Source of the DNA: a virus | Virus record (IMG/VR): IMGVR_UViG_3300048918_000309 | Coordinates: 1 to 52,758 of that record | Length of the DNA: 52,758 nt | Strand: one strand, 5' to 3' | In this document: one piece after another, positions 19,662 through 52,758 of the stretch | Position numbering within the stretch: position 1 is the stretch's first letter | How the letters are laid out: each line of letters begins with the position of its first letter | The notes under the pieces: generated by a model | Database searches by the model: none | Told to the model about the DNA's origin: nothing | Seen by the model: only the letters and a program-made list of their open reading frames with translations | Position numbers and translations under genes: made by a program

Positions 19662-21115
19662 GCAAGCAGGCCTTTCGCGAGTTCGACGAGCGCCTTGCCG
19701 GCCTCCGTTGCAACGTTGTCGTTCGCGGAGGGGTCAGGGGCAGGTGCGGGAGGGGTTGGCGGCGGTGGCGGGTTCCTGGCAGCCTCACCCGCTACCGAAA
19801 GCGGGATATCCTGCTGCTGCACCCACGGCTCGTCGCCGTATTCGACAGGGGCGAGTTCGAAATCCTGGCGCGCGGCGTTGCGGTCGAAGATGCCACCCTT
19901 TACGCCAGCGGCCCACCCTTCCACGCGCTCCTTGAAGGCGGACCGCAGCAAGGCGCTCGTGTCGAATTCCAGATATTCGTCGGGCTGTCCGCCGAGCTTA
20001 AAGAGCAGTCCGATCGCTTCCTCGATATGGTTGAGGAGGAAGCCCAGACCGCCGGCACGCCACGACTGCATCATCGCTTCGGTGGTGGCGAAAGGGGACC
20101 CGCCGATCCCGAGGACCTGGAGCGGAATGCGGAAAACGTTCGCGATTGCCTGATCCGAAAGCTTCAGCAGGTCAGCAAGTTCGGAATCCTTCGCCGATGA
20201 ACCGATCGGCTGCGCCTTGAGGTTTGCGGTTAAGATCGGCGTGCCGCCGCTATTCATTCCCTTTGCCTGCTCGTTCCAGCTAGCACGGAGGAAATCGACC
20301 TGCTCTTTCGTCAGCACCTGGTCGGTGCTGAGCACGAAAGATGGGCGAGATTGGTTCAGGAAGAACCTGACTTGCTGGAGCAGGGCGGCGTTACCCGCCG
20401 CCATCTGCAATGCGGCGGCGCCGAGCGGACTCTCACCGAGCAGAGGATGTCGCGGCGTCTGTAGTCGAATGTGGAGGACGTCGCGGGCGGGCACGATCAG
20501 CCCGACCCCATACCGGGCGTCGACGATCGGGTTGCCGGACATGTGATAGAAGACCTCGCCGGTCACAGCCAGTTGGGGACCTGATTGGCGGGAGTTCATC
20601 ATGTGGAGCTCTACGGGTTCGAACCGGTTGTTCCGGATGACGAGCGCGTAGGCGTTGCCATCGTCGAGCAGCATGCGGACGATGTTCATGAGGAAATCGG
20701 AAATCGACTGATAGTCGTTGGGTGCCTTCAGGATGCGAACAAGCGTCGAATTGGTGACGCGCTCGCGGCCCTTTTCCTTGGCCCACTTCCAGTGGTTGCC
20801 AGGGCACATCGCGACGGTCTGCGCGTAGGAGCCAATACAGGCCTCGACCATCGCGCTCCGCCCAGAGCCCTGCACGTCATGGCCAAGCTGCCACCAGTTT
20901 GCATACTGGCCGGCGTCGCTCGAGAGCCAACCGCCGGTGATCGGCAGATTATATGGGCCTTCCCGAAACTCACCCTCTCCGGCTTTCGCGACCCGTGTCA
21001 GGGCATAATTCGCCTCTGCCGCGGCGGCGCGCGCCGATAATTTGTAGCCGGGAAGGCCCACGAGTTCAGTCCGCCTTCTTGGCGCGCGAGTGATTCTCGT
21101 CGTCAATCGTGACAT
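19658..21115 (-). CDS. Portal protein, HK97 family
   Basis: 485 residues. Recognisable portal features are WWQLGHDV near the N-terminus, VEACIGSYAQTVAMCPGNHW, the block LGESPLGAAALQMAAGNAALLQQVRFF, and LSDQAIANVFRIPLQVLGIG before the stem/crown helices. The C-terminus is Pro-rich (PPPPPTPPAPAPDPS). Twelve copies form the ring through which DNA enters the prohead. The frame overlaps the end of the Ala/Lys-rich gene by about 50 bases at the 5' end, so the exact start is less sure; the ATG at 21115 has a weak AGG. The neighbouring protease-capsid and terminase genes confirm the role. Confidence 0.9.
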   Translation of the reverse strand: MSRLTTRITRAPRRRTELVGLPGYKLSARAAAAEANYALTRVAKAGEGEFREGPYNLPITGGWLSSDAGQYANWWQLGHDVQGSGRSAMVEACIGSYAQTVAMCPGNHWKWAKEKGRERVTNSTLVRILKAPNDYQSISDFLMNIVRMLLDDGNAYALVIRNNRFEPVELHMMNSRQSGPQLAVTGEVFYHMSGNPIVDARYGVGLIVPARDVLHIRLQTPRHPLLGESPLGAAALQMAAGNAALLQQVRFFLNQSRPSFVLSTDQVLTKEQVDFLRASWNEQAKGMNSGGTPILTANLKAQPIGSSAKDSELADLLKLSDQAIANVFRIPLQVLGIGGSPFATTEAMMQSWRAGGLGFLLNHIEEAIGLLFKLGGQPDEYLEFDTSALLRSAFKERVEGWAAGVKGGIFDRNAARQDFELAPVEYGDEPWVQQQDIPLSVAGEAARNPPPPPTPPAPAPDPSANDNVATEAGKALVELAKGLLA

Positions 21116-21514: not shown

Positions 21515-23440
21515 TTACCAGGTGACGGACTGCGTCCAGGCGACGGTACCGGAGCGGCGAAGCGCCCAGTTCATGTCGAGGATCATCCGCAGCGCCAGAG
21601 TGTCGGTCTGGAACAGCGAGCGGACCGGAGCGGCCACCACGTTCGGGGTACCGGTCGTGCCGATCGCCAGCGGCGTCGTATCTTCCATGTGGAGGGTGGC
21701 CTGATCCGACATGTCGAAGCGCGGATCGTCGCCGGTGGCGCTGAAGAAGTCCGCCGCGTCGACGAGGAACACCATGCCGGCAGTGACCGTGGTCGACTGC
21801 AGGATCGGATACCCCAGCAGGTTGCCCTCGGCGATCTCGGCCTTGAACGGAAATTCGCCGCCGGCATTCTGGGTGACGCTCGCCGAAAGCACCTGGATCG
21901 GGTTCATGATCCAGACAGGCTGGCGGAGACGACCGTTGCTGCTGGCAATCAGAGCCGCGATCAGCCCCTTGAGATCGCCGACCAATGCAGCGAAGCCGCC
22001 CCCGGACGTTGCCGTCGTCACCGTGACGCCGTTGCGAAGACCCGCAGGCCGCACCGTCGATGCTGCGGTCGCATCGAGTAGCACCGTATCGATGGAAACG
22101 GCAGTGTCCTCCTGGATCGCCTCGCGCAGCACCGCCTCGATCGACGGGGTCGAATGCTCGGCGATCTCGCGCGTGAACGTCGAGATGACCGCCATCTTCT
22201 TCGGCGTGAGCGAAGTCGACGTGAAGGCGCCCTGGCGAACCGGGATCGGCGCGCCCTGACCGACGAACGAGCCGCCGACGCTGTTGCCGAGGTTGCGCGC
22301 CGGAAGACTGACGACGCCATTGCGGCCGAACGTGAAGCGACCACCTCGGGCGCTCAGCCCGGGATAGACGGAGAACGGGAGCAGGGACTCGATGAAGTCG
22401 AGGATCGCCGTCTGCACCAGCTCGGCCGCCCAGCCGGTCGTGGTGGTCGTCGCCGGCGCGGAGGCAGCGCGGGTGACGACATCGAACACAGCGCGGGTCA
22501 TCGGGTCCTCGCCGTAACGCTCGACCAGGATCTCGGCCTGATTGCGCTTGGTGACGTGCGCAAGCGCGGTGACGACGGCCGCGCGGAGGATATAGTCCTT
22601 CGGCGCGACCTTCTTCGCCGCGGGAGCAGCGAACGGGCGCCGCGGATCCTGCTGGCCCGCAGGCTGATCGATGATCACCCCGGGAGCGGTCTTGACGGCG
22701 AGGGCCTGCTCGGCGCGCTGGAGCGCACCGAGGACCGTCTTGCTCTGCTCGACGATGCGGCTGAGCTCCTCGGTAACGATGACGTCGGCATCGTCCTGCG
22801 AAATGTGGTTGTTGAGGTCGTCGGTCGCCTTGGTGAGCGCCGCCTGTGCGGCCTCGATACGCTGTGCGAGCGTCATCGTCTTTGTCCTTGATGGGGGTGG
22901 GGAAGCGGCGTGCTCGCCGTTGGCTCCACGCTGCACGACCTCGATCCCATCGGCAGGCTCGCCAAAGATCGTCCGTTTTGCATCGTCGGAAAGGTTGAGG
23001 GCTTTCGCCATCTGAAGCGCGTTCGGGTTCGCTGGGATGCTCACCAAGGAGCATTCGACCAGCTCAGACGCCTTGAAGCGTACGCCGCGGCCATTCTTCA
23101 TGGGCTCGGCATCGATCGGGCGGAAACCTACCGAGACCGCGCGCAGCACACCGTGCTCGACTGCGGCGCGGATCTCGTCCAGGCGCTCGGAGATGCCAGC
23201 CGGCAACAGCTTGAGCGTGCCGATCAGTTTGCCGGCGATCACCTTCACGTCCGTCCAGTGGCCGACGATGAACTTGGAATCGTGGCCGAACAGGGCGATC
23301 GGGTTCTTCTTGAAATTCGCGAGAGCCCAGCCGGCTGCCTCGACGACATCGCCATATCGATCGACGGATTCGTCGCTCATCACATAGACAAGCGGGTCCG
23401 CGTCCGCCGGAGCGGCGACTGATTTTACGATTACCGTCAT
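21515..23440 (-). CDS. Prohead protease-scaffold-major capsid fusion protein
   Basis: One 641-residue frame encodes three functions that are often separate. Residues 1-165 are an S78 (HK97 gp4-like) prohead protease with His53 (ALFGHDSK) and Ser103 (LRAVSVGF). Residues 185-275 are helical and charged, like a delta/scaffold domain (MTLAQRIEAAQAALTKATDD). From about 290 to the end comes an HK97-fold capsid protein (FTREIAEHSTPSIEAVLREAI; PVWIMNPIQVLSAS; FPFKAEIAEGNLLGYPI). The protease should cut itself and the scaffold away after assembly. No stop or frameshift interrupts the fusion. It follows the large terminase gene by nine bases. Confidence 0.9.
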   Translation of the reverse strand: MTVIVKSVAAPADADPLVYVMSDESVDRYGDVVEAAGWALANFKKNPIALFGHDSKFIVGHWTDVKVIAGKLIGTLKLLPAGISERLDEIRAAVEHGVLRAVSVGFRPIDAEPMKNGRGVRFKASELVECSLVSIPANPNALQMAKALNLSDDAKRTIFGEPADGIEVVQRGANGEHAASPPPSRTKTMTLAQRIEAAQAALTKATDDLNNHISQDDADVIVTEELSRIVEQSKTVLGALQRAEQALAVKTAPGVIIDQPAGQQDPRRPFAAPAAKKVAPKDYILRAAVVTALAHVTKRNQAEILVERYGEDPMTRAVFDVVTRAASAPATTTTTGWAAELVQTAILDFIESLLPFSVYPGLSARGGRFTFGRNGVVSLPARNLGNSVGGSFVGQGAPIPVRQGAFTSTSLTPKKMAVISTFTREIAEHSTPSIEAVLREAIQEDTAVSIDTVLLDATAASTVRPAGLRNGVTVTTATSGGGFAALVGDLKGLIAALIASSNGRLRQPVWIMNPIQVLSASVTQNAGGEFPFKAEIAEGNLLGYPILQSTTVTAGMVFLVDAADFFSATGDDPRFDMSDQATLHMEDTTPLAIGTTGTPNVVAAPVRSLFQTDTLALRMILDMNWALRRSGTVAWTQSVTW

Positions 23441-23449
23441 GGAAACCTC

Positions 23450-25360
23450 TCAGGCGATCATTGCCGCCACGTCGGGGCCGGGTTCAGCGACGAGGAACAT
23501 CGGCGCGCTCGCGTTGATCAAGCCGTCGACGCCATCGATCTTGTTCGGACTGTTGGCCGTTTCCTTTTTAGGAAGCAGGCTGCCATCGGTGCGACGGTCG
23601 ACGACCGCATTTCCGATCATCCAGGTCATCACCGCATTGCCATCGTGCCGGATTCGAGACGGGCCAGATTTGACGCGCGCCTCTATCGCCTTCGCGGGGT
23701 CGGTGACGTTCTTCGAATTCTTGGCGAGCTGGGCGGCGAACGCCTCGCCACCATCGTCGAAGTCCTGGTTGAGCCGGGACGCCATAGCGAGACCGCTGTT
23801 CCACTGGTCGAAGGTTGCGCGCCGCAGCGCCAGCGCTCCTTTCAGCTCACGAATCTTTGCTTCGATGATGTTGTGGTCGATGAAATCGCCCTCGGTCTTG
23901 ATCAATTCGCCCTTGGCGACCCAACCCTTGTAGAGGTCGGTGACCTGCTTGAGAGACGGATCTTGGTTCTCGAGGCGCGCCTCCGGAACGAAGAACCAAG
24001 GCTTTACGAGCAGCTGGCCATCCGGGCGTTCGGCCGCGAGCACCAGCGCAGATAGATCGTCGACGTTCGAGAGATCGGCGCCGAGGTAGCAGTCCAAGCC
24101 CTTGAAATCGTCCAGCGTCAGCGCCGTATCGCCGCAGATTATCCACTGCGAGACACTCAGCCAGGCCGAGGCGGCGCCAAGCCAGCGGTTGAGGTTCTTC
24201 GTGAAGAAATTTGCCTCGGCCGACGGACTGGCCCGAGCCTCGATCGCGCGCTTGCCGATTTCCTTCTGCAGCGAGGGCGCTGCCGGCAGCAGCGGGTTGG
24301 CCTTGACCCAGTTCTTGGGGTCGTAGGGATCGTCGCCCTTCTTCCGTTCGGGCTCGAAATCCTTGGGTTGGTCGAGCGTGTAGATGATCGCGAAGACGTG
24401 TTCGGCAATAACAGAGCGCTCGAGCACCTTGGTCGCGAACGTCCGCTGCTCGTAGCAGATGCCGTGGATGTTGAAGCCCGCCGTGGTGATGATCCAGAGC
24501 AGCGGCTGCAACCTGGCGCCGAAGGCCGACACCATCACGTCATAGAGGCCGCGATCACTGTGCGCGTGGAGCTCGTCCATCGTCACGACGTGCGGATTGT
24601 GCCCGTCCTGCGACTTCGATTTCGAGTGGATCGGCTGCATCCAGCCGCCGTTTCCCTTGCACTCGATCGACTTAGCCCAGGGGATGAGCGCGAACGCTTC
24701 CTGCAGCGCAGGCAGCTTCTCGACCATCCGCTTGGCGGGATTGAACACCTTCTTGGCCTGGTCGAACGTCGTCGCCGCCGTCAGGATCTGCGGCCCGGGC
24801 TCGTCCTCGCAGGTCAGGCAATAGAGTGAGACGACCGCGGTCAGCGTCGACTTGGCGTTCTTGCGGGCCAGCTCCTCGTAGACCAGCGTGAAGCGGCGGA
24901 ATCCGGTTTCCTTGTCCCGCCACCCGAACACGCACACCAGAATGAAGATCTGGAAGGGCTCCAGGTCGATCAGGCCGCAACGCTCGTGATGCTCGCCCCG
25001 GCGCGCGCCCAGGCACTTGCACCAATTGCCCTCGACGTGCGGCATCTTCTCGCCGAAGTCGCAGATGTCGTTGCCGTGCCAGGGGTCGAACCGGTACGGG
25101 AAGTCCTTCGATTTTTGGCGCTTGAGATCGTCGAGATGCCGCTGCGCCGCCAGCCGCACCCATTTGCAATGCTCGGTCTGGCGCTTGTCGGCCGCCGCGC
25201 GCTTCGCATAGTCGAGCGCGATCTCCGAGTAATTCCGGGCGTGCTCGGTCGGTGCGAACGTCGGGTGGCTGGCCTTGCGCTTAGGCCGTGGCCTCTTCGC
25301 CGGCGCCTTAGCGGGCGCGGGCGCCGTTGCGCGCGAACGGGTTGGTCGACTTTGCGCCAT
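23450..25360 (-). CDS. Terminase large subunit (HK97-like Terminase_1 family)
   Basis: 636 residues. After a basic, Pro/Ala-rich N-terminal tail (about 1-40) comes the ATPase domain, with a Walker A-like loop ELARKNAKST (163-172) and Walker B VVTMDE (258-263). The nuclease domain has LGADLSNVDDL (Asp429 and the 434-435 pair) as the first acidic cluster and DGVDGL near the end. It pumps DNA into the prohead and cuts concatemers, with the small subunit choosing the site. The start at 25360 overlaps the small-subunit gene by 53 bases. A cysteine set at about 100-128 (CKCLGARRGEHHERC) could bind a metal and is not standard in this family. Confidence 0.93.
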   Translation of the reverse strand: MAQSRPTRSRATAPAPAKAPAKRPRPKRKASHPTFAPTEHARNYSEIALDYAKRAAADKRQTEHCKWVRLAAQRHLDDLKRQKSKDFPYRFDPWHGNDICDFGEKMPHVEGNWCKCLGARRGEHHERCGLIDLEPFQIFILVCVFGWRDKETGFRRFTLVYEELARKNAKSTLTAVVSLYCLTCEDEPGPQILTAATTFDQAKKVFNPAKRMVEKLPALQEAFALIPWAKSIECKGNGGWMQPIHSKSKSQDGHNPHVVTMDELHAHSDRGLYDVMVSAFGARLQPLLWIITTAGFNIHGICYEQRTFATKVLERSVIAEHVFAIIYTLDQPKDFEPERKKGDDPYDPKNWVKANPLLPAAPSLQKEIGKRAIEARASPSAEANFFTKNLNRWLGAASAWLSVSQWIICGDTALTLDDFKGLDCYLGADLSNVDDLSALVLAAERPDGQLLVKPWFFVPEARLENQDPSLKQVTDLYKGWVAKGELIKTEGDFIDHNIIEAKIRELKGALALRRATFDQWNSGLAMASRLNQDFDDGGEAFAAQLAKNSKNVTDPAKAIEARVKSGPSRIRHDGNAVMTWMIGNAVVDRRTDGSLLPKKETANSPNKIDGVDGLINASAPMFLVAEPGPDVAAMIA

Positions 25361-36860: not shown

Positions 36861-37039
36861 TCGACCGCCAATCCCTACTGAACGCGCCGGGTCGCTTGTC
36901 TGACCTGCATGGCGACGAGCGGCGTGCAGCGCTGTTCTCGCGCAAGGATCGCCACGACGCGGACTGGATGCGTTCGCGCTCGGTACGCCCGCTGCCGGAG
37001 AGGATCGCCGATGCGGTTCGGAAGGCGGTGGGGCGGTAA
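36857..37039 (+). CDS. Small basic protein, unknown function
   Basis: 60 residues, strongly basic (RRAALFSRKDRHDADWMRSR; ERIADAVRKAVGR). It overlaps both neighbours (ATGA in front, TAATG behind). Composition would suit nucleic-acid or membrane-surface binding. No family. Confidence 0.55.
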   Translation: MIDRQSLLNAPGRLSDLHGDERRAALFSRKDRHDADWMRSRSVRPLPERIADAVRKAVGR

Positions 37040-37434
37040 TGGCTTACGCTGATCGAACCCAGGTGCCGTTCACCAAAACGGTCTCGGAAATCGTCGCGAT
37101 GATCCGCAAGGCCGGCGCGACGCAGGTCGGGCAGATGGAGGAAGAGAATCGCCTTACGGTCCTGTTCTCCATGGCCGACCGTCAGGTTCGATTCCGGGTC
37201 GCGTGGGAGAATAGTCCGCAGTCGCAACGTCAACGAGCGCGAGCGCTGAAGTTGGTTATCCAGGCCAAGCTCGAGAGCATCGAAAGCGGCGTCGAGACAT
37301 TCGAACAAGCGTTCCTTGCCAACATCGTGATGGCCGACGGCGCCACTGTCTACGAACGCGTCCGCAGCGATCTGGCGCTCGAATACCGCAGCAACGCTCC
37401 GACGATGTTCCTCCTGAAAGGTCCGGATCAATGA
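37039..37434 (+). CDS. Conserved phage hypothetical protein
   Basis: 131 residues. The opening MAYADRTQVPFTKTVSEIVAMIRKAG, then FSMADRQVRFRVAWE and the Arg/Gln-rich helix, and YERVRSDLALEY, match a widespread phage family seen in actinobacterial and alphaproteobacterial phages whose role is unknown. Overlaps its neighbours by one and four bases. Confidence 0.65.
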   Translation: MAYADRTQVPFTKTVSEIVAMIRKAGATQVGQMEEENRLTVLFSMADRQVRFRVAWENSPQSQRQRARALKLVIQAKLESIESGVETFEQAFLANIVMADGATVYERVRSDLALEYRSNAPTMFLLKGPDQ

Positions 37435-38489
37435 CCACCACCCCCGCACAGGCGAGAGAGGCGGAGGCGCGGGAGTGTCTTCGGTCGACACCACACCTTG
37501 AGACCTGCGAACTGGGGCTGGATCTTGGCCCGCGCACCAACCTTTGCTCCTGCGACCACGCCCTCCGCGCCATGCTCGCCTTCGCCGCCCAGCAATCGCA
37601 GCCGGTCGGGGAGGGTGTGCTTGCCGAAGCGTTCGGGCAGGCCCGCGCGCTGATCCAGGAGGCAAAGGGTGCGGAATGGCCAATGGGCGGATTTATCACC
37701 GACCATCTCGACTTCGCAGAACACTGGCTGAACAAGGCAGAGGAGATCGCCCTCTCCGCCACCCAAGCCCCGGTCGGGGAAGGGGCGTTGCGGGAGGCGT
37801 TGGAGGCATCACAGCGCATTCTACGCGCATCCTACATCGGCACGGGGTCGCTCGGCGGCTCATGCATTTGTGGCGTCCAGTGGCTGGGTGACGCGGAAAC
37901 GCACGCCGCCAGTTGTCCGATCGCAGCAAATGCCGCCGCCCTCCAGTCCCCGGCATCCCAGCCGGTGGAGGGCATTCAGCACGTTGCCGATAAAATAGCC
38001 GCTGGGATTGATCGCGCACATTGCGAAGCGGGCGCACGCGGCCTGCCAGCATCCCAGCCGGTGGAGACAGACGAGTACATGTCGGTCTCGCTGTCGAGGG
38101 ACGGCGTGGTCACCTCGCACAACGCCTTCGACGCCGATTTTGACGAGATGGTCGTTGCGACCGAAACGATTGTTCGCGAGCTGCAGCGCAGGCTGAGCGA
38201 TCGGAAGTTCTGCCCGTATTCCCATGGCGCAGAGCTTCGAAAAACCGCGCCAGCATCCCAGCCGAACCGAGAAGCGGTGCTGCGGGAGGATACCGCTTTT
38301 TCAATCAGTAAGCGGCGGCATGAGGAAAAGCGCTGTGTGACGAATGATCGTCTGCGGGAAGCGCTTGAGAGAATAGCGGCGCTGAATAGACGCGAGATTA
38401 GCAGCGCTGGCGTCGCTATGCGCGCAATTCAAATCGCATCCGCCGCCCTCACCCCAGCCGCCGATCTGACCGGTTCGGGAGAGAAGTGA
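37431..38489 (+). CDS. Ead/Ea22-like repetitive accessory protein
   Basis: 352 residues. It has a short Cys-containing start (TNLCSCDHALRAMLAFA), then modules built on a repeated linker: SQPVGEG, APVGEG, PASQPVEG, PASQPVE and PASQPN. Between linkers are helical segments (VLAEAFGQARALIQEA, ALREALEASQRIL, RLREALERIAAL). This beads-on-string layout is typical of lambdoid Ea22-type early proteins, which vary by module loss and gain. Its function is unknown. Confidence 0.6.
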   Translation: MTTTPAQAREAEARECLRSTPHLETCELGLDLGPRTNLCSCDHALRAMLAFAAQQSQPVGEGVLAEAFGQARALIQEAKGAEWPMGGFITDHLDFAEHWLNKAEEIALSATQAPVGEGALREALEASQRILRASYIGTGSLGGSCICGVQWLGDAETHAASCPIAANAAALQSPASQPVEGIQHVADKIAAGIDRAHCEAGARGLPASQPVETDEYMSVSLSRDGVVTSHNAFDADFDEMVVATETIVRELQRRLSDRKFCPYSHGAELRKTAPASQPNREAVLREDTAFSISKRRHEEKRCVTNDRLREALERIAALNRREISSAGVAMRAIQIASAALTPAADLTGSGEK

Positions 38490-38674: not shown

Positions 38675-40030
38675 ATGTCTCAGCTTCCAGCTCTTCAGCG
38701 CTCCGTGTTCGACCTGATCGACGAATATGAGCGCAAGGCCGCCGGAGTCGATCAGGCGATAGTCGCTTTCGAGCGCGCTTTTGACGCTCTCGGCATGGCT
38801 GCCACGGTCCAGGGAACGTTCATCGACAGCATCGGCAGTCGGTCCTTTCTCCACGCATCAACGCTGCAAAAAAACCTCCTCAAGTCCGGCTGGAAGGCGG
38901 TGTTCAATCGCCTGCAGATCGACCGGATTGCCAGCGCCAACGACCGGAAACTGTTCGATCGCGCAATAGCGGATCCGCCTCCACTAACGGTGGAGAACGC
39001 CAAGGCGACGTTCGGCGATTACTTCGTGCGGCCCCGCTTTCACATTCTGCGCGGTCTCGCTGAGGCCTTCACCGACCTCGACCCGGCGTACAAGTCGCAC
39101 TCAAACGTCCGGATCGGCGTGAAGGGCCTGCCAAAGCGGATCATCCTTCGCGGCTGGGGCGAGTACGGCTCCGGCTGGGGTCATGACCGGTTCCGCGACA
39201 TGGCGAATGCACTGGCCACCTATCAGGGCAAGCCGCACCTTGAATGGCCGGAGATTTCAGCGATCAACGCCGAACTTCGAAACGGCGATGCAGTTCTTGA
39301 TGGCAAGGCGGTCACCTGGGACGTCAAGGGTGCCGTTCCAGCCGACCGGATTGGCATCGATCGCGGTATCACTGTCCGGAAGTTCGCCAACGGCAATGCC
39401 CATGTCTTCTTCGAGAAATGGGCGCTGGTCGATATCAACCGCGCGCTCGCAGAGTTCTACGGCGAGGTGTTGCCTGACGCCGAAGAGGAAGGCGTGCGGC
39501 CTAGCGCGAGTACTGCCGTCTCAAAGGACCTGCAATTCTATTGGTCGCCGCCTGCAGTGATCGACGCTGCGTTGGAATTTGCGAGCGTCTGGGATTCTAG
39601 AACCTATAGCGGCACCCGGCCGGCTCTACGCGTGCTGGAGCCCTCGTGCGGCGACGGTCGCATTCTCGATGCGATCGCTCAACGGGGATATCGCGCGCTG
39701 GGCGTTGAATATCATCCGGGCCGGGCGGCCGAAGCCCGCGCGAAGGGGCATTCGGTCCTTACGGCGAACTTTCTCGATCAGCCCGCGACCCCAGACTTTG
39801 ACCGCGTGGTGATGAACCCGCCGTTCTACGGCCGGCATTACCTCAAGCACGTCCGGCACGCCCTCGACTTTCTCAAGCCTGGCGGTGTCCTCGTGTCGAT
39901 CCTGCCGGCGACGGCGCACTACGACCATGGAGAGCTCCAAGGCGAATGGCGCGACCTGCCCGTAGCCAGCTTCGCCGACGCTGGGACAAACGTGCCGACC
40001 GGCATGCTCAGAATGAGGAAGGCGGCATGA
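38675..40030 (+). CDS. Adenine-type DNA methyltransferase with N-terminal DUF4942-like domain
   Basis: 451 residues. Residues 1-280 resemble DUF4942 (helical, KAVFNRLQIDRIASANDRKLFDR; GWGEYGSGWGHDRFRDMANAL; VRKFANGNAHVFFEKW). Residues 285-451 are a class I methyltransferase with the AdoMet loop VLEPSCGDGRIL (320-331) and the catalytic NPPF (381-384) of N6-adenine enzymes. It probably modifies phage DNA and protects it from host restriction, or marks replication. The methyltransferase lies after the DUF4942 part. No restriction partner is nearby. Confidence 0.85.
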   Translation: MSQLPALQRSVFDLIDEYERKAAGVDQAIVAFERAFDALGMAATVQGTFIDSIGSRSFLHASTLQKNLLKSGWKAVFNRLQIDRIASANDRKLFDRAIADPPPLTVENAKATFGDYFVRPRFHILRGLAEAFTDLDPAYKSHSNVRIGVKGLPKRIILRGWGEYGSGWGHDRFRDMANALATYQGKPHLEWPEISAINAELRNGDAVLDGKAVTWDVKGAVPADRIGIDRGITVRKFANGNAHVFFEKWALVDINRALAEFYGEVLPDAEEEGVRPSASTAVSKDLQFYWSPPAVIDAALEFASVWDSRTYSGTRPALRVLEPSCGDGRILDAIAQRGYRALGVEYHPGRAAEARAKGHSVLTANFLDQPATPDFDRVVMNPPFYGRHYLKHVRHALDFLKPGGVLVSILPATAHYDHGELQGEWRDLPVASFADAGTNVPTGMLRMRKAA

Positions 40031-41065: not shown

Positions 41066-41868
41066 TCCCCCCAGACGAAATCGCGCGGCTCGTGGAGCGG
41101 CTGCGGGCACATTCTTCGTGGCTTCGCGACAACTGCGAATGTGAAGCCGGCGACGCTTGCGATGATTGCCGCAATGCGACTCTCCTCACCGAGGCGCAGC
41201 TCGCCCTCGAAGCCCTATCTCCGCCGGCACCGGCAGAGGGGTTCGTGCATCATAAGCAGTTTGCAACTGACATGGCGTCAGAAACGAATGATTTCGTGGT
41301 GGTGCCCCTTGAGCCGAGCCCAGATCAGTGGGGCGGTTTAGCGCGTCAAATCATGATGTGGCTCGATTGCGGTGCGCCTTACACCCCGCGCAGCCTACTC
41401 GATCATCTTGGGCGCTGCAGCGAGCAAATCCCGGATTGGCTCAGAGATGAGTACGAGATGAAAGCTCTCGATCATTCGATGTCCAAGGGTACACGTTGCG
41501 TTCTCATCTACCGCGCCATGATCGCCGCCCGTCCTCAACCCCAGGCGGCGGAGACGGTGGAGCATGAGCTGGATTGTCTCCGCCGCCAACATGAGCAGCG
41601 GGCCTATCCATGCTCACCACATTGCTCCGGGTATCTTCGCGAACTGCACCTTCGCGCCAAAATGGACACCCACCAGCGCGACGCGGTTGATCGGATGCGG
41701 GAGGCGCTGGAGCCTTTTGCTGCCTTGGCGGAATTCTACGACGAATGCGAACAGCATCCGAACGGCTGTCCGGATAACGCGAACATCGGGGAGGCGGTTG
41801 ACGTAACCGTTGGCGATCTCCGTCGCGCCCGCGCTGCCCTTTCCACCCTGGCCGAGGGGGAGGGGTGA
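41062..41868 (+). CDS. Ea22-like accessory protein with cysteine cluster
   Basis: 268 residues. The N-terminus MIPPDEIARLVERLRAHSSWLRDN is the usual start of Ea22-type proteins, followed by CECEAGDACDDC. A second Cys group lies near residue 190 (YPCSPHCSGYL). A C-terminal helix (DAVDRMREALEPFAALAEFYDEC) is repeated in related proteins. Modular, variable, function unknown. It overlaps the cytosine methyltransferase start by one base. Confidence 0.58.
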   Translation: MIPPDEIARLVERLRAHSSWLRDNCECEAGDACDDCRNATLLTEAQLALEALSPPAPAEGFVHHKQFATDMASETNDFVVVPLEPSPDQWGGLARQIMMWLDCGAPYTPRSLLDHLGRCSEQIPDWLRDEYEMKALDHSMSKGTRCVLIYRAMIAARPQPQAAETVEHELDCLRRQHEQRAYPCSPHCSGYLRELHLRAKMDTHQRDAVDRMREALEPFAALAEFYDECEQHPNGCPDNANIGEAVDVTVGDLRRARAALSTLAEGEG

Positions 41869-42953
41869 TGGCGCTCGCTTATTACAACGAGATAGATCCC
41901 TTCGCCGCGGCAGTGCTGCGCGAATTGATCAAGGCCGGCGAAATCGCGCCGGGCGTCGTGGACGAAAGGGACATCCGGGATGTCGCGCCAAATGAGCTTT
42001 CTCGATTTACTCAGTGCCACTTCTTCGCAGGTGGAGGTGTCTGGTCCTACGCATTGCGCCGGGCTGGCTGGCGTGACGAATGGCCGATCTGGACCGGATC
42101 CTGCCCATGCCAGCCTTTCAGCGCGGCGGGCAAAGGACTTGGGTTTGATGATGAGCGGCACCTCTGGCCCGCTTGGGACTGGCTCATTGATCAGTGCCGA
42201 CCTGAGTGCATCACTGGCGAGCAAGTTGCAGACAAAGGTGCAGATGCTTGGCTCGACCTTGTACAAGCTGACCTGGAAGCCATGGACTACGCCTTCGGGT
42301 GTGTGCCGCTTGCGTCTGCGGGCTTCGGTGCGCCGAACCCTCGGCATCGCACTTTCTGGCTGGCCGACTCCGCTGGCCGCCGACGCAAGGGGATCAGCCG
42401 GCGTTGGAAAGATGGAATTGCCCAATGTCGCGATGCTCACTGGCTGGGCGACGCCGTGCGCTATGGAGCCGGATCAGGCTGCGGAAACGGTGATCGCGCG
42501 GAAGGCGCGCCTGTCGGAGTCGTCCGGGGTTTTCCGAGGGCCGGCGCTCCCGCTGGGCACCCAAGCGCAATTAGCGGGTTGGCCGACACCCTGCGCTCGG
42601 GACTGGAGATCAGACCGAGGCAAGCAGTCGGACGAGGAACTGTACGGGACGAAGGGGAAGCCCCCACCTCGCGTGGCCTACGAGGCAGCCTGGCCGAACG
42701 ACCGGCAGGCGGTGGTTTACGCGATCCGGGGCCGACTAACGGCTTCTGGCGAGATGCTGACTGGCTCCTTTGCCGAGACCCCCGAGGCCCACGCTGGCGG
42801 CCCGTTGACAGCGGCGCATTCCCTCTGGCTCCAGGGGCTCCCGAGCGCGTGGGAACGGTGCGCCTCTCTGGCAATGCAATCAATGCCGAAGTCGCAACGG
42901 CGTTCATTGAAGCGGTGATGGATCACCTCACAGCCGAAAGCCTCGCAGCATGA
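41868..42953 (+). CDS. DNA (cytosine-5) methyltransferase
   Basis: 361 residues from the ATG at 41868. C5-methyltransferase motifs: FFAGGGVWSYAL (motif I, about 52-63), CPCQPFSAAG with catalytic Cys81 (motif IV), CITGEQVADK (motif VI, in place of ENV), APNPRHRTFWLAD (motif VIII) and a C-terminal LSGNAINAEVATAFIEAV (motif X). The variable region between VIII and X is Arg/Gly-rich. It probably protects phage DNA from restriction; the target sequence cannot be told from the sequence. Most of the gene is overlapped by a second long frame (41980-42918). Confidence 0.88.
   Translation: MALAYYNEIDPFAAAVLRELIKAGEIAPGVVDERDIRDVAPNELSRFTQCHFFAGGGVWSYALRRAGWRDEWPIWTGSCPCQPFSAAGKGLGFDDERHLWPAWDWLIDQCRPECITGEQVADKGADAWLDLVQADLEAMDYAFGCVPLASAGFGAPNPRHRTFWLADSAGRRRKGISRRWKDGIAQCRDAHWLGDAVRYGAGSGCGNGDRAEGAPVGVVRGFPRAGAPAGHPSAISGLADTLRSGLEIRPRQAVGRGTVRDEGEAPTSRGLRGSLAERPAGGGLRDPGPTNGFWRDADWLLCRDPRGPRWRPVDSGAFPLAPGAPERVGTVRLSGNAINAEVATAFIEAVMDHLTAESLAA
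41980..42918 (+). CDS. Out-of-frame ORF nested in the cytosine methyltransferase gene (GWPTP-repeat family)
   Basis: 312 codons, fully inside the methyltransferase gene in another frame. The product has the repeats SGWPTPLAADARG, TGWATPCAMEPD and AGWPTPCARDWRS, and the segments MSFLDLL, HASLSARRAKDLGL and GSTLYKLTWKPWTTPSG. I recall highly similar hypothetical proteins from many phages and prophages, so the frame is conserved in sequence. That could be a passive result of conserved methyltransferase DNA (LADA codons read as GWPTP) or a true overlapping gene. No strong ribosome site precedes the ATG at 41980. Confidence 0.35.
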   Translation: MSRQMSFLDLLSATSSQVEVSGPTHCAGLAGVTNGRSGPDPAHASLSARRAKDLGLMMSGTSGPLGTGSLISADLSASLASKLQTKVQMLGSTLYKLTWKPWTTPSGVCRLRLRASVRRTLGIALSGWPTPLAADARGSAGVGKMELPNVAMLTGWATPCAMEPDQAAETVIARKARLSESSGVFRGPALPLGTQAQLAGWPTPCARDWRSDRGKQSDEELYGTKGKPPPRVAYEAAWPNDRQAVVYAIRGRLTASGEMLTGSFAETPEAHAGGPLTAAHSLWLQGLPSAWERCASLAMQSMPKSQRRSLKR

Positions 42954-44028: not shown

Positions 44029-44209
44029 TGGAACGGTGCCCGTGGTGCAGGGGGCGGGAACTGACCAACCTTCCAGCTTCCTGTACAGCGATCGAGAAGC
44101 CGCTGCGGATGAAGACGAAGCCGAAATCTGGGACCGTTTTGTCGCCGCGAGGGCCGCCATCCGCGCCCTGTCCTCTGGCGTGGGGGAGGGGGTGAAAGAT
44201 GTCTGCTAA
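44021..44209 (+). CDS. Small acidic protein
   Basis: 62 residues, very acidic (DREAAADEDEAEIWDRF), overlapping both neighbours. Its acidic character could suit a DNA mimic or an adaptor, but there is no direct evidence for either. Confidence 0.5.
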   Translation: MPDGTVPVVQGAGTDQPSSFLYSDREAAADEDEAEIWDRFVAARAAIRALSSGVGEGVKDVC

Positions 44210-44453
44210 ATCGCATCGGCTGATTCGGCTGAAAGAGGTGCTCCAGCTGGTGCCGCTATCGCGCTCGACGATCTACGCGCGCATGCACGCCGGCACCTTT
44301 CCGCAGTCGCGCGACCTGGGCGGCGGCGTGGTCGCGTGGTACGAGTCGCAGGTGCTCGAATGGATCGAGGCGCTGCCCGGCGCGGGGTCGGAAAATAATT
44401 TGGGGGTAGGCGAGGGGGTAGCGGACGAAGAGGCTATCCCGAAAGCGGCGTAA
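44199..44453 (+). CDS. AlpA-like excisionase / transcription activator
   Basis: 84 residues. MerR-type winged HTH of the AlpA family: RLIRLKEVLQLVPLSRSTIYARMHAGTFPQSRDLGGGVVAWYESQVLEWIEAL. AlpA proteins activate or assist P4-type integrases in excision. The gene ends 228 bases before the integrase pair, and the last codons carry two GGGGGTAG repeats also found near the integrase operon. Confidence 0.83.
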   Translation: MSAKSHRLIRLKEVLQLVPLSRSTIYARMHAGTFPQSRDLGGGVVAWYESQVLEWIEALPGAGSENNLGVGEGVADEEAIPKAA

Positions 44454-44680: not shown

Positions 44681-45259
44681 GTGCTGAACGATGCGATTGT
44701 CGAGAATGCAGAACCGCTGGAGCGCCCGTATAAGCTGGCCGATCAGCGGTGCCTCTACCTCTATGTTTCGAGGTCGGGGTCCAAATCATTCCGTCTTAAG
44801 TATCGTTTCAAGAGGCGCGAAAAACTCCTTACGCTCGGTCGCTGGCCGTTGATCTCGCTGGCCGAGGCGCGTCGGCGTGCTGACGTGGCGCGCGCAAATC
44901 TGGCAGACGGTATTGAGCCGGAGCGCTGGCGCCTCGCCGCGCCAGTTCGCGAGAGAGTCGCGCTACGCGACCTCCCCGTACCTACGACCGGGTCGAGGTT
45001 TGTCTATTTCATCCAGGCCAGCAGCGGCCACATCAAGATCGGCGTTACATCGTGCGTCGAACATCGAAGGCGCGCGCTGCAGACAGCCCATCCAGAGGAG
45101 CTCGTGCTCCTGGCTTGTGCCCCGGGAGGTCATGCCCACGAGACGGAATTGCACCACATGTTCGCGGACTATCGCGACCATGGAGAATGGTTCTCACCCA
45201 CACCCGCGCTGCTCGGCATGATTGAAGCGGTTCGCGCGTCTGGGGGCTGGGAATGCTGA
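44681..45259 (+). CDS. Integrase arm-binding domain (DUF4102) fused to GIY-YIG nuclease domain
   Basis: 192 residues from a GTG with GAGGAG eight bases upstream. Residues 10-80 are a DUF4102 arm-binding domain clearly related to the N-terminus of the integrase encoded next (RPYKLADQRCLYLYVSRSGS; RREKLLTLGRWPLISLAEAR). There is no catalytic recombinase domain. Residues 107-184 are a GIY-YIG domain of the MUG113 type: VYFIQASSGHIKIGV, the following Arg run (RRR, 129-131), Glu154/156 and GEWF (168-171). The gene overlaps the integrase ATG by seven bases. It may cut or nick at sites the integrase binds, or compete with it. I know of no described protein with this role. Confidence 0.85.
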   Translation: MLNDAIVENAEPLERPYKLADQRCLYLYVSRSGSKSFRLKYRFKRREKLLTLGRWPLISLAEARRRADVARANLADGIEPERWRLAAPVRERVALRDLPVPTTGSRFVYFIQASSGHIKIGVTSCVEHRRRALQTAHPEELVLLACAPGGHAHETELHHMFADYRDHGEWFSPTPALLGMIEAVRASGGWEC

Positions 45260-46524
45260 CGGACGTCCAGGCGAAACGCGCGAAGCCCGCGGACAAGCCA
45301 TACAAACTCGCCGACGGGGGCGGCCTGTTCCTCCTCGTCGCGCCGACCGGCAGCCGGTCATGGCGCATGAAATATCGGGTCGGGAAGAAAGAGAAGCTGC
45401 TGACCTTCGGGCTCTATCCCGAGGTATCGCTCGTCGCCGCGCGCGCGGAGCGGGAGAAGGCGAAGGCCGCGCTGCGCGAGGGCCGCGACCCGGCCGTCGA
45501 AAAGAAGCAGGCCGCCGCGGCGCGGACGATCGGCGCGTCGAACACCTTCGAGGCCTGCGCGCGCGCCTGGCACGAGCTGAACAAGCCGCGCTGGAGCGAG
45601 GTGCATGCCGGCAACGTCATCGACAGCCTGGAGAACGACCTATTTCCCGCGATCGGCTCGCTGCCGATCAAGGACGTGACCGAGGCGCTGCTGCTCGACG
45701 CGCTGCGCAAGGTCGAGCGCCGCGGCGCGATCGAGACCGCCCACCGCATCCGCCAGCGCGCGAGCGACGTCTTCGCCTATGCGGCGGCCGGCGGCATGCG
45801 GACCGGCGATCCGGCCGCGGTCGTGAAGTCGTTGCTCAAGCCCAAGCCGAAGGCGAGCAAGCAGCCGGCGCTGACCAACCTAGCCGAATGCCGGCAGCTG
45901 ATCGTCGACGTCGAGGCGGAGCGCGCGAGCCCGATCACGAAGCTCGCAAACCGGCTCATAGCGTTGACCGCGGTCCGGTCAGCCGTGCAGCGGCATTGTC
46001 GTTGGACCGAACTGGAGGGGCTCGACGGCCCGGCGCCAATCTGGCGGGTACCGCCGGGCACGATGAAGCTCGCGCTCCGCCTGAAGGACGATATCGAGTT
46101 CGAGCATATCGTCCCGCTGTCGCGCCAGGCCGTGGAGACGATCGAGGCGATTCGGCCGCTGACCGGCCATCTGCCTTTCCTCTTCCCCAACGATCGCCAT
46201 GCGCACCGGCCCATGTCGGAGAATGCGGTCCGCGCGCTGATCATCCGGGCGGGCGAGGGCATCTATAAGCACCGGCATTGCCCGCACGGCTGGCGATCGT
46301 CGTTCTCGTCGCTCATGAACGAGTGGCGCCGGCGGGAAGGGCGACCGGATGATCGCGAGGTCATCAACCTGATGCTGGCGCACGTCGCCGAGGATAAGGT
46401 CGAGGGCGCCTATAACCGAGCTGCGCACATGGAGCGTAGGACCGAGCTCGCTCAGATCTGGGCGGACATGATCCTGGAGGGTTCTCCGCCGGCGGCTGAG
46501 CTTCTGGACGGCAGGCGCAACTGA
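45253..46524 (+). CDS. int: Tyrosine integrase, P4 type (DUF4102 N-terminus)
   Basis: 423 residues. Arm-binding domain at residues 5-85 (KPYKLADGGGLFLLVAPTGS; KKEKLLTFGLYPEVSLVAAR), core-binding domain at 95-190, catalytic domain from about 210: Arg in TAVRSAVQRHCRW, His-x-x-Arg in CPHGWRSSF, His in MLAHVAED and Tyr in GAYNRAAH. It recombines attP with attB and, with AlpA, can excise the prophage. The usual R-x-G-E after the first Arg is altered to RSAVQR, a departure worth noting. P4-type integrases often use tRNA genes, but no tRNA fragment was seen here. Confidence 0.92.
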   Translation: MLTDVQAKRAKPADKPYKLADGGGLFLLVAPTGSRSWRMKYRVGKKEKLLTFGLYPEVSLVAARAEREKAKAALREGRDPAVEKKQAAAARTIGASNTFEACARAWHELNKPRWSEVHAGNVIDSLENDLFPAIGSLPIKDVTEALLLDALRKVERRGAIETAHRIRQRASDVFAYAAAGGMRTGDPAAVVKSLLKPKPKASKQPALTNLAECRQLIVDVEAERASPITKLANRLIALTAVRSAVQRHCRWTELEGLDGPAPIWRVPPGTMKLALRLKDDIEFEHIVPLSRQAVETIEAIRPLTGHLPFLFPNDRHAHRPMSENAVRALIIRAGEGIYKHRHCPHGWRSSFSSLMNEWRRREGRPDDREVINLMLAHVAEDKVEGAYNRAAHMERRTELAQIWADMILEGSPPAAELLDGRRN

Positions 46525-46546
46525 TGCAATATAAGGAGTTCTTGAT

Positions 46547-47380
46547 ATGAGCGAAAACGTGAGCAGACGGCCGGAGAGTTTTCCAGTATCGGCCGAGCTT
46601 GAGCGGGCGATCGATGTCGCCACCTCACGCGCTTCGCCCATGCGCGGCATCGCCAAGGTTGTTGTCGGCAGCGCTGCCGGCCACCGAGTGATGACGGCGA
46701 AAGGAGAGGTCTCGCCGTCGTACGGCGAGGTTTTCGCAAGCCCGGCCGCTAGTGAGGCGATGCTCGATGACGCTGCCTTCGACGCTGAAAAGTGGCTGGC
46801 TGATGAAATCGGCTCGGAATTCGGGTGCGTCGAGAGCGAAGCGTTTGTCGTTGGCAATGGGGTCAACAAGCCGAAAGGCTTCCTCGCCGCTCCGGTCTCT
46901 CGCGAAGCGGACGCGACCCGTGCGGGTGGTACCCTGCAATACCTGCCCAGCGGCCGCGACGGTGACTTCGACGGCATCCCAGAAGATCGTTTGATCGATT
47001 TGACCCAAGCTCTGCAGGCGGAATACCGTCGCCGAGCATGCTGGGTAATGAATTCGATGACCCTCGCGAGAATCCGCAGGATCAAGACCGAGGAAGGCGC
47101 ACCCCTCTGGGCTCCGAGCTTGGCTGGCGGTCAACCCAGTATACTGCTTGGTTATCCCGTGATCGAGGTCACAGATATGCCGGACATAGCGGCCAACTCG
47201 CTTGCGATCGCCTTCGGGGATTTCGGGTCGGGTTACCTGATCGCAGAGCGGGGGCCGACCCAGATCGTTCGCGATCCCTTTACAAAGAAGCCCTTTGTTC
47301 TCTTCTACGCGACAAAGCGGATCGGCGGCGCCGTATCCGACTGGAATGCGCTCAAGCTGATGCGCTTCAGCAAGAACTGA
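46547..47380 (+). CDS. Orphan HK97-fold major capsid protein, shortened
   Basis: 277 residues with a strong AAGGAG site eight bases upstream. The C-terminal two thirds are unmistakably HK97-fold capsid: VFASPAASEAMLDDAAFDAE, WLADEIGSEFG, VVGNGVNKPKGFLAAP (102-116), WVMNSMTLARIRRIK, LLGYPVIEVTDMPD and a final RIGGAVSDWNALKLMRFS. It lacks the delta/scaffold domain, protease and N-arm, and the stretch corresponding to the E-loop seems short. It lies after the integrase, on the strand opposite the virion genes, and is not closely similar to the capsid at 21515. It could be a decoy or interference protein, a size-altering capsid variant, or a relic of a satellite. Confidence 0.85.
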   Translation: MSENVSRRPESFPVSAELERAIDVATSRASPMRGIAKVVVGSAAGHRVMTAKGEVSPSYGEVFASPAASEAMLDDAAFDAEKWLADEIGSEFGCVESEAFVVGNGVNKPKGFLAAPVSREADATRAGGTLQYLPSGRDGDFDGIPEDRLIDLTQALQAEYRRRACWVMNSMTLARIRRIKTEEGAPLWAPSLAGGQPSILLGYPVIEVTDMPDIAANSLAIAFGDFGSGYLIAERGPTQIVRDPFTKKPFVLFYATKRIGGAVSDWNALKLMRFSKN

Positions 47381-47392
47381 AGGAGCCGACCG

Positions 47393-47662
47393 ATGTCCCC
47401 GCTTGAGCGCGCTGCCCGCGCTGCAGCTGAACAATACGGCGAGGACTGGGATAAGCTGCCGGCGATCAACCCAGTCGCCAATGGCGAGCCCGATCAACGC
47501 CAGTATTTGGAGTTGATCCGCGCGGCATTTCTCGCGATTCGCGAACCAGACGGGTCGATATCGCTGGCCGCGTTCCGCAATGGAGCGTGCGGAGCGCATG
47601 AAGATTGCTGGCGGCTGATGATCGACGAGATCCTGAGGGAGGATCCTGATGCGCCTCGTTGA
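47393..47662 (+). CDS. Small hypothetical protein
   Basis: 89 residues with AAGGAG seven bases upstream. Helical, aromatic-poor (SPLERAARAAAEQYGEDWDKL; YLELIRAAFLAIREPDGS). Proteins of this kind accompany many phage accessory genes. It overlaps the next gene by 14 bases. Confidence 0.55.
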   Translation: MSPLERAARAAAEQYGEDWDKLPAINPVANGEPDQRQYLELIRAAFLAIREPDGSISLAAFRNGACGAHEDCWRLMIDEILREDPDAPR

Positions 47663-48020
47663 CCTGCCCACCTTCCTCGCGATGCCTGCTGGCACGGTGT
47701 ACGCCAAATACGAGCCTTGCGTGTTTGGCGAGCTGGCGATCAAGGACGACAGCGTCCCGGCCAGTGATCCGGTGACCTGGTACCTCCAAGATCTGATCCC
47801 GTGGTTCGAGGGCTGCAACGAAAGCATGGGCTATTTCGATGCGCTCGAATCGATGCAGCGGGGTGAGGAGACGCCCCCGCTGGACTATGATATCACCAGC
47901 AAGGATGGGCTGTACGAGCGCGAGCAGCTGTTCGCCGTGTTCGAGCGCCGGGATGTGGAAGCGCTTGTCGCTCGCCTCAGCCGGGCGCTGAACGATGGCT
48001 ATAGCCAGGAGCAACGATGA
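47649..48020 (+). CDS. Hypothetical protein
   Basis: 123 residues. Motifs: LVDLPTFLAMPAGTVYAKYEPC; GELAIKDDS; DPVTWYLQDLIPWFEGC; EREQLFAVFERRDVEALVARLSRAL. The pattern recurs in phage proteins near accessory genes. No function known. Confidence 0.6.
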   Translation: MRLVDLPTFLAMPAGTVYAKYEPCVFGELAIKDDSVPASDPVTWYLQDLIPWFEGCNESMGYFDALESMQRGEETPPLDYDITSKDGLYEREQLFAVFERRDVEALVARLSRALNDGYSQEQR

Positions 48021-49168: not shown

Positions 49169-49819
49169 ATCTGCAATCGAGCTCGCAACAAGGCTGCGCC
49201 TGAGCCGCCGACGCTGGTGACGCACTTCGGCACCGACTGGCTGGCCGACAAGCCGATGGACAATCGGTTCAATCCGAAAGAGCTGACGCCGAAGACGCGG
49301 GCCTACGTGGTGCGGGAAAGCGATCGGGGCAGGGGGCTCGATGTCATGAACTGGGACGTGCTGGGCGGCCAGGCGAAATGGCCCATGACGAATGTCCGGC
49401 AGCTTGGTCTGCCGCAGTGGCGCAGGCTCGCCGCCAATCCTGAAAACCGCTGTCTCATCCCGCTCACCGAGTTCTGCGAGTGGACACCAGAGCCGGTCGA
49501 CCTGATGGACGGCAAGAAGCCCGTGAAAGGCGAGATGTGGTTCGAGGTCGTCGACCAACCGCTGTTTGCAGTCGCAGGCTTCTGGCAGGCGACGGCGGCC
49601 GGCAACGGTTTCACGATGGTCACCTGCGATCCGAACGAGCTCGTCGCGCCGATCCACCCGAAGGCGATGATCACGATCCTGGAGCCGACCGATTGGGACA
49701 CCTGGCTGCGCGGCAGCTATGACGATGTCGTCGCGCTCCAGCGGCCCTATCCAGGCGATCGCATGACAGTGCGCGGACCCGAATTCCCGACCCGCCAGCC
49801 GGCCTCCAAGCCGCTCTGA
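49169..49819 (+). CDS. SRAP (YedK/HMCES-like) protein, start codon apparently ATC
   Basis: 216 residues if translation begins at the ATC at 49169, with a GAGG/GGGAGG site about five bases upstream. That start gives Met-Cys-Asn-Arg, the invariant SRAP N-terminus whose Cys2 crosslinks abasic sites. The other active-site positions are present: Asn in DNRFNPKEL, Glu in LTEFCEW and His in PIHPKAMITIL. The first standard start, GTG at 49217, would remove Cys2. SRAP proteins shield abasic sites in single-stranded DNA. Two genes with LexA-type boxes follow, so this is a DNA-damage-linked neighbourhood. Most pipelines would call 49217-49819. Confidence 0.8.
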   Translation: MCNRARNKAAPEPPTLVTHFGTDWLADKPMDNRFNPKELTPKTRAYVVRESDRGRGLDVMNWDVLGGQAKWPMTNVRQLGLPQWRRLAANPENRCLIPLTEFCEWTPEPVDLMDGKKPVKGEMWFEVVDQPLFAVAGFWQATAAGNGFTMVTCDPNELVAPIHPKAMITILEPTDWDTWLRGSYDDVVALQRPYPGDRMTVRGPEFPTRQPASKPL

Positions 49820-52445: not shown

Positions 52446-52758
52446 TCATCCGCTGAGCCCGCGCGCGCCACCGTGGTCAGGCGTTGGCCGTGCCACCTTG
52501 CCGAGCGTGAAGGGCAGGATCGGCGTCGGGACTTTCTGGTATTGCGGTGCGCTGGTGTCCTTGACGTTCAGCACGCTGCCGCCTGCACCCGCCGTGTAGA
52601 CGGAGCCGTTGTAAGTCACGCCCGCATAGGTCGACCACACATCGCTGCGCGTCGTGGTTGCGGTCCCTATGGTGCAGCCTAGTCCTGCGACGCGCTGGCT
52701 GAAGGTGTTGGTATAGGTGTTGTTCGCGCGCCCACCCGCGGCATCCAGATAGAGATAG
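52446..52758 (-). CDS. Beta-helix-like tail fibre/spike, C-terminal part (upstream part at 1-2070)
   Basis: In-phase continuation of the gene at 1-2070: 61 further residues, then TGA at 52446. Within this window the part from 52632 to 52758 duplicates 1-127. The end (VPTPILPFTLGKVARPTPDHGGARGLSG, taken in pieces) is Pro/Gly-rich. A 112-base gap (52334-52445) separates it from the next tail gene and holds no gene. Confidence 0.8.
   Translation of the reverse strand, partial: YLYLDAAGGRANNTYTNTFSQRVAGLGCTIGTATTTRSDVWSTYAGVTYNGSVYTAGAGGSVLNVKDTSAPQYQKVPTPILPFTLGKVARPTPDHGGARGLSG
52632..52758. repeat. Terminal direct repeat, right copy (circular overlap)
   Basis: Identical to bases 1-127. See the left copy. 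Confidence 0.95.

Follow-up and report, generated by a model that had tools for sequence, protein, structure and literature searches.

A trimmed GTA-type capsid gene beside the integrase of a complete phage: a candidate factor in phage-GTA conflict

Gene transfer agents (GTAs) occur widely among alphaproteobacteria and are generally regarded as being under host control. In the open literature, RcGTA-like genes in phages have served to trace where GTAs come from (e.g. PMC11409702). Capsid interference by a capsid homologue is described for satellites: SaPIbov5 encodes Ccm, a homologue of a capsid protein that is incorporated into phi12 capsids in pentameric form and redirects them, and that cannot form capsids alone. 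The delta domain of Ccm (residues 1-87) is cleaved during assembly and is suspected to matter (PMC8569155). We found no phage-borne trimmed GTA capsid in the open literature, where satellite capsid interference is represented, and no phage-borne factor directed against GTAs in the literature that we searched. Here, we analyse a capsid gene that bears on both.

The stretch of DNA under study (the window) comprises the 52,758 nucleotides of IMG/VR virus record IMGVR_UViG_3300048918_000309. An exact direct terminal repeat of 127 bp (positions 1-127 and 52632-52758, identical and both on the + strand) closes the record as a circle. It thus represents the complete genome of a phage, 52,631 bp in length, and the gene of interest lies inside this genome rather than in a host flank. 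That gene, hereafter called the orphan (46547-47380, + strand), is an intact ORF of 277 amino acids with an ATG start, preceded by the Shine-Dalgarno sequence AAGGAG at 46533-46538 (within a base), 8 nt 5' of the ATG. A gene for a tyrosine integrase (45253-46524, +) lies directly 5' of it, with 22 bp between the integrase stop and the orphan ORF, whereas the identified virion genes all reside on the - strand. These encode the protease-major capsid fusion of the phage itself (phrog_617; 21515-23440), the terminase large subunit TerL (23450-25360), the portal protein (19658-21115) and the tape measure.

The neighbours of the orphan are thus the integrase and small genes of no assigned function, with neither a protease nor a portal gene beside it. 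An 89-aa gene without assigned function follows 12 bp 3' of the orphan (47393-47662, +), and next to it stands the gene for a 123-aa phage protein (phrog_11827; 47649-48020, +). On the other side, the start of the integrase gene is overlapped by a gene that fuses an integrase arm domain (PF13356) to a T5orf172/MUG113 (GIY-YIG-like) domain (44681-45259, +), the product of which possibly binds the att arm sites, where it might act as a nickase or a regulator, and an AlpA-type regulator (44199-44453, +) is likely the excisionase. The region from the integrase to the tail spike shows no DNA-level sharing with related phages, and we therefore regard it as accessory. The carrier is probably a temperate phage of a sphingomonad. 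Its genome also holds two methyltransferase genes, one combining DUF4942 with a methyltransferase (38675-40030, +) and the other encoding a C5-cytosine methylase with matches to DruM/MTase_II models (41865-42953, +), as well as an SRAP-like gene (phrog_1599; 49169-49819, +). The catalytic Cys2 of the SRAP-like protein would need an ATC start at 49169 (ATC-TGC-AAT-CGA, behind GGGAGGGG); mechanical ORF callers begin at the GTG at 49217 and lose the catalytic cysteine.

What kind of protein does the orphan encode? It matches the HK97-fold phage capsid family PF05065 with E=2e-58 over model positions 67-280, and its AF2 model (pLDDT 89.4, pTM 0.85) contains the HK97 core fold with the spine helix and the P- and A-domains. 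Among solved structures, the best sequence match is the RcGTA capsid Rcc01687 (E 2.5e-66), and in a Foldseek search with the model the RcGTA capsid occupies ranks 1-5 (TM 0.73-0.78), followed by the capsid of the cf-PICI EcCI2 (9gyi). The E-values together with the structural match to RcGTA exclude a chance match. The original prediction, made from the letters of the DNA, had described a 277-residue HK97-fold capsid protein with a strong ribosome site, next to an integrase and opposite to the virion strand, and this description is borne out in all its parts. It had also set the orphan apart from the separate, full protease-capsid fusion of the phage as not a close paralogue. Consistently, BLASTP between the two gives 24.6 bits over 48 residues only, and we reject recent paralogy with the phage's own capsid on this ground.

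The nearest natural relatives of the orphan are capsids encoded in 14-15 kb clusters in Sphingomonas, which are 52-57% identical to it along their full length and 60-66% identical when only the core is compared. One of these (L053) is a GTA cluster with genes for TerL, portal, capsid, tail completion, non-contractile sheath/TIM-barrel, baseplate hub and Rcc01698_C proteins. In a tree of the core, the orphan groups with 32 Sphingomonadaceae GTA capsids with support of 100/99 (96 in a first tree), and the comparison between a position inside this clade and one as its sister gives AU p=0.22. Judged by sequence, the orphan derives from Sphingomonadaceae GTA-type capsids, homologues of RcGTA g5/Rcc01687, which makes neither a rival phage nor a satellite its source; it lies itself outside any GTA head-tail cluster. 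Closely related GTA-type capsids occur in most of the sampled Sphingomonadaceae genomes, so that the putative target would usually be present in hosts. Some chromosomes of this family carry broken or fragmentary GTA capsid genes (G234:C1:462688-463128, G083:C3:32380-32580 and G146:C1:3257130-3257594), which suggests GTA loss in some lineages.

The orphan has been trimmed in a distinctive manner. Its ORF begins about at the mature N-terminus of the GTA capsid, and the N-terminal scaffold/delta domain is absent; this domain and an adjoining protease and portal, the attributes of a functional GTA- or HK97-type capsid gene, are all missing. In addition, a single clean block of 22 residues is lacking between codons 53 and 54 (46703-46708, +), which leaves a gap at the tip of the E-loop typical of PF05065 capsids. 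The block is present in every GTA capsid extracted for comparison, with one exception in a later scan (metagenome L276). In the AlphaFold model of the full-length L053 capsid, it is predicted to sit between the E-loop strands E101-104 and E127-130, and in that of the orphan the strands E48-50 and E53-55 are joined by a tight turn instead of an E-loop. By alignment, residues 148-152 of the RcGTA capsid, which belong to its E-loop and contact the adaptor (PMC7296036), fall within the deleted stretch. Absence of the scaffold and a shortened E-loop region had both been foreseen, the latter now resolving into exactly 22 amino acids at the tip, whereas the supposed lack of an N-arm was an overstatement: the arm is diverged, and about 40 of its residues remain. 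The exceptional L276 gene (571-1650, +) encodes a GTA capsid that has independently lost ~20 aa of its E-loop but retains an intact scaffold domain, in an apparently otherwise normal GTA cluster. Either an E-loop deletion can arise alone, or this gene reflects an assembly error.

Is the trimmed gene maintained, or is it decaying? We analysed codon positions on a fixed tree of 40 sequences, in which the orphan branch measures 0.54, 0.50 and 1.79 at positions 1, 2 and 3, with third positions close to saturation and some of its length possibly older than the truncation. In the core (residues 70-277, comprising the P- and A-domains; 46754-47377, +), this branch amounts to 6.4, 9.2 and 7.3% of the rest-of-tree length at the three positions. 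Given these shares, the ratio of amino-acid-changing to silent substitutions in the orphan core is about that of the GTA capsids themselves. The corresponding values for the N-terminal part (residues 13-69) are 36, 21 and 15%, and the N-arm and E-loop stalk as a whole (residues 1-69; 46547-46753, +) appear relaxed, with 36-44% identity to GTA capsids versus 70-81% among GTA capsids. Likewise, among positions conserved to 97% or more across 43 GTA capsids, 76 of 89 are retained in the core of the orphan, compared with 13 of 24 in its N-arm and E-loop stalk (Fisher p=0.003). In neutral simulations with similar divergence, the frame stays open in 0.15-6% of runs (P 0.0015-0.06). Such a pattern points to retention of the gene rather than to decay, with a core that is apparently under purifying selection and an N-arm and E-loop stalk that have drifted. 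The frame is unbroken and purifying selection is not lost, as either would be in a pseudogene. Random decay, which had been named beforehand as an outcome that would speak against a capsid-interfering role, was looked for; core constraint equals that of GTA capsids, and the codon-position test lends decay no support.

Searches for further copies returned no close relative of the orphan from IMG/VR, be it in exact-peptide scans with the whole protein, its N-terminal 78 aa or the integrase, or among the best 80 of at least 600 stretches in an alignment scan. There was also none in a GTDB scan of one genome per species with exact-peptide seeds, none among the plasmids scanned, and none in a tblastn-type search of ~1,000 alphaproteobacterial genomes, mostly Sphingomonadales (overlapping samples of 401 family, 401 order, 295 genus and 181 class genomes); several of the scans require exact 8-residue matches, which limits their sensitivity. 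Top-ranked matches were full-length capsids, and 47 related phage records, many being fragments, contained no orphan of this kind. Candidates for short capsids were resolved as GTA fragments, as a prophage scar or as ordinary capsids. The scar (L360; G067:C1, 5288-6538) is found in a Sphingomonadaceae chromosome, where a C-terminally truncated integrase is directly followed by an N-terminally truncated capsid (43% identical), and is apparently what remains of a deleted prophage.

A separate orphan of the same design is present in Caudoviricetes sp. ctuI7215 (MW202777.1, here L385), a circular complete phage of 45,280 bp from Manatee Spring that encodes its own full-length capsid (36934-38271) and a protease. 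Like the orphan at 46547-47380, its protein UOF81702.1 (3714-4499, +; 261 aa, annotated 'major capsid protein') is a short PF05065 protein without scaffold domain and without E-loop, and its gene is located opposite to the virion strand, in an accessory region of a phage with its own capsid. The two proteins differ, however, being only 31% identical; the deletion in UOF81702.1 is larger, and this protein carries an additional tail at its C-terminus and has a branch length of 3.85. No integrase is annotated adjacent to its gene, which lies ~3 kb from one annotated alpA, an annotation that Pfam does not confirm. Among the capsids compared, UOF81702.1 matches the Sphingomonadaceae GTA type best (112 bits), ahead of its own phage's capsid (92) and of the first orphan (90). 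MW202777.1 has GTA-like tail genes, and its terminase has one nearer record (a 'Desulfofustis' phage) and is otherwise closest to those of Brevundimonas and Roseobacter phages. A common origin of the two orphans yields AU p=0.40, and scans with UOF81702.1 brought up no third case. That two phages with different head modules each carry a GTA-like capsid lacking these same parts is suggestive of a function. Lone occurrence, the other outcome held in advance to count against such a role, is therefore what we see at the level of close homologues, but it is offset by this second phage.

How might a trimmed GTA capsid be of use to a phage? We envision that a temperate phage captured a GTA major capsid gene, placed it in the accessory region behind its integrase and kept it in a trimmed form. 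The protein would fold without scaffold or protease and would join, via its conserved core, the capsomers of GTA particles made by the host, or those of phages with that capsid type. E-loops and N-arms of HK97-type capsids form an inter-capsomer network (PMC12749128). With the P- and A-domains kept but the scaffold and the E-loop/N-arm contacts gone, the orphan could enter capsomers and stop or bend assembly, because the contacts that link subunits and capsomers to one another would be wanting. The benefit might fall to a prophage whose host would otherwise lyse in releasing GTAs, or to one that meets phages with such capsids. We assign a probability of roughly 40% to this reading, for which Ccm is a precedent and in which the orphan acts as a poison or redirector of assembly, entering capsomers as they grow, be they those of GTAs of the host or of phages with such capsids. 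Since the orphan has no delta domain, unlike Ccm, its recruitment to growing procapsids may fail. The original prediction had considered capsid interference against rival phages; interference is still the leading mechanism, whereas phylogeny moves the source and the likely target to GTAs.

Alternatively, the gene might be a passenger, brought along by recombination as a GTA capsid gene, truncated by deletion, functionless and heading for loss. Its status as a singleton among close homologues would fit, as would the E-loop deletion in a GTA cluster (L276), the integrase-capsid scar in G067 and the GTA capsid fragments in other genomes. A relic would, however, have to have retained an intact ORF with a good ribosome site, a core with the codon-position pattern of GTA capsids and with their conserved residues, and a reading frame that survived both truncations, and the same design would have to recur by coincidence in MW202777.1; we hold this explanation to be doubtful, albeit a serious one. 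Conceivably, the core has instead been exapted as a small oligomeric or binding protein, a decoy for a capsid-recognising host factor or a regulator, unrelated to GTA assembly. The loss of inter-capsomer elements from a preserved core, the location in an accessory operon with small genes of no assigned function, and the strong divergence and C-terminal tail of UOF81702.1 are compatible with such a role. Yet the residues that are kept are those that capsids conserve, the simplest reading of which is that capsid-type contacts are kept, and PADLOC gave no match, so that we consider exaptation unlikely.

Might the orphan co-assemble with GTA or related capsids and change their size or shape for the profit of the phage, for example by placing phage DNA in GTA-like particles? 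Ccm, likewise a capsid homologue, does replace pentamers (PMC8569155), and the cf-PICI EcCI2 capsid is among the structural neighbours of the orphan. The phage nevertheless encodes a complete head of its own with another capsid type, its 52.6-kb genome far exceeds the 4-4.5 kb carried by RcGTA (PMC7296036), and the delta domain suspected to matter in Ccm is lacking, all of which renders this use improbable. That the orphan helps to assemble the phage's own capsid, or forms a minor part of it, is more improbable still: both proteins share a fold family, but hardly any sequence similarity, and the orphan is encoded on the opposite strand in the accessory region and has no counterpart in the related phage records. 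An assembly artefact or chimera, for which the single virus record might speak, we judge least probable of all in view of the continuous, operon-like spacing, the circular closure and a distinct sequence with an in-frame deletion found in no genome searched. A satellite (PICI/cf-PICI) or the relic of an integrated satellite, as had been entertained, is rejected. The circular genome is that of a complete phage, in which TerL, portal, protease-capsid and tape measure are all encoded; no satellite genes surround the orphan, and the orphan groups with GTA capsids and shows purifying selection in its core.

If the orphan indeed poisons or redirects the assembly of GTA-type capsids, then capsid interference by capsid homologues would extend from satellites to complete phages. 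A trimmed GTA capsid apparently kept by selection, together with a second phage of the same design, makes a conflict between phages and GTAs testable with one cloned gene. A bolder and more tentative generalisation, which we would not count on, is that phages of GTA-bearing alphaproteobacteria have repeatedly captured the host GTA capsid and trimmed its scaffold and E-loop to obtain an anti-GTA (or anti-capsid) poison. Further cases could be sought by a simple signature, PF05065 proteins of <300 aa that lack the E-loop and are encoded outside head clusters.

How does the orphan relate to other HK97-fold proteins? Encapsulins have this fold and likewise no phage scaffold domain, but they retain the E-loop and self-assemble; the orphan has no E-loop and only weak structural similarity to them by Foldseek. 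The cf-PICI EcCI2 capsid, its second-best structural neighbour in the PDB, is, unlike the orphan, a complete capsid protein, and comes from a satellite that constructs heads of its own. With capsids of the RcGTA g5/Rcc01687 type, the orphan shares fold, clade and most core signature residues, its core being 60-66% identical to Sphingomonadaceae GTA capsids; it differs by its residence in a phage outside a GTA cluster, by the missing scaffold domain and E-loop tip and by the diverged N-arm. Ccm of SaPIbov5 is the closest analogue in proposed action, since it, too, is a capsid homologue of a mobile element, encoded apart from the head genes that it targets or, in the case of the orphan, would target. 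The N-arm is short or changed in both, and neither is expected to build shells alone. Ccm, however, is satellite-borne and possesses a delta domain, which is cleaved, and an E-loop; the orphan has neither, is carried by a complete phage and has a GTA capsid as its parent. Tested for these defining features and found to lack them, the orphan is therefore not classed with the Ccm group or with satellites. A capsid homologue outside the head genes is known; its source in a GTA capsid, the design of its truncation and its carriage by a complete phage are new here.
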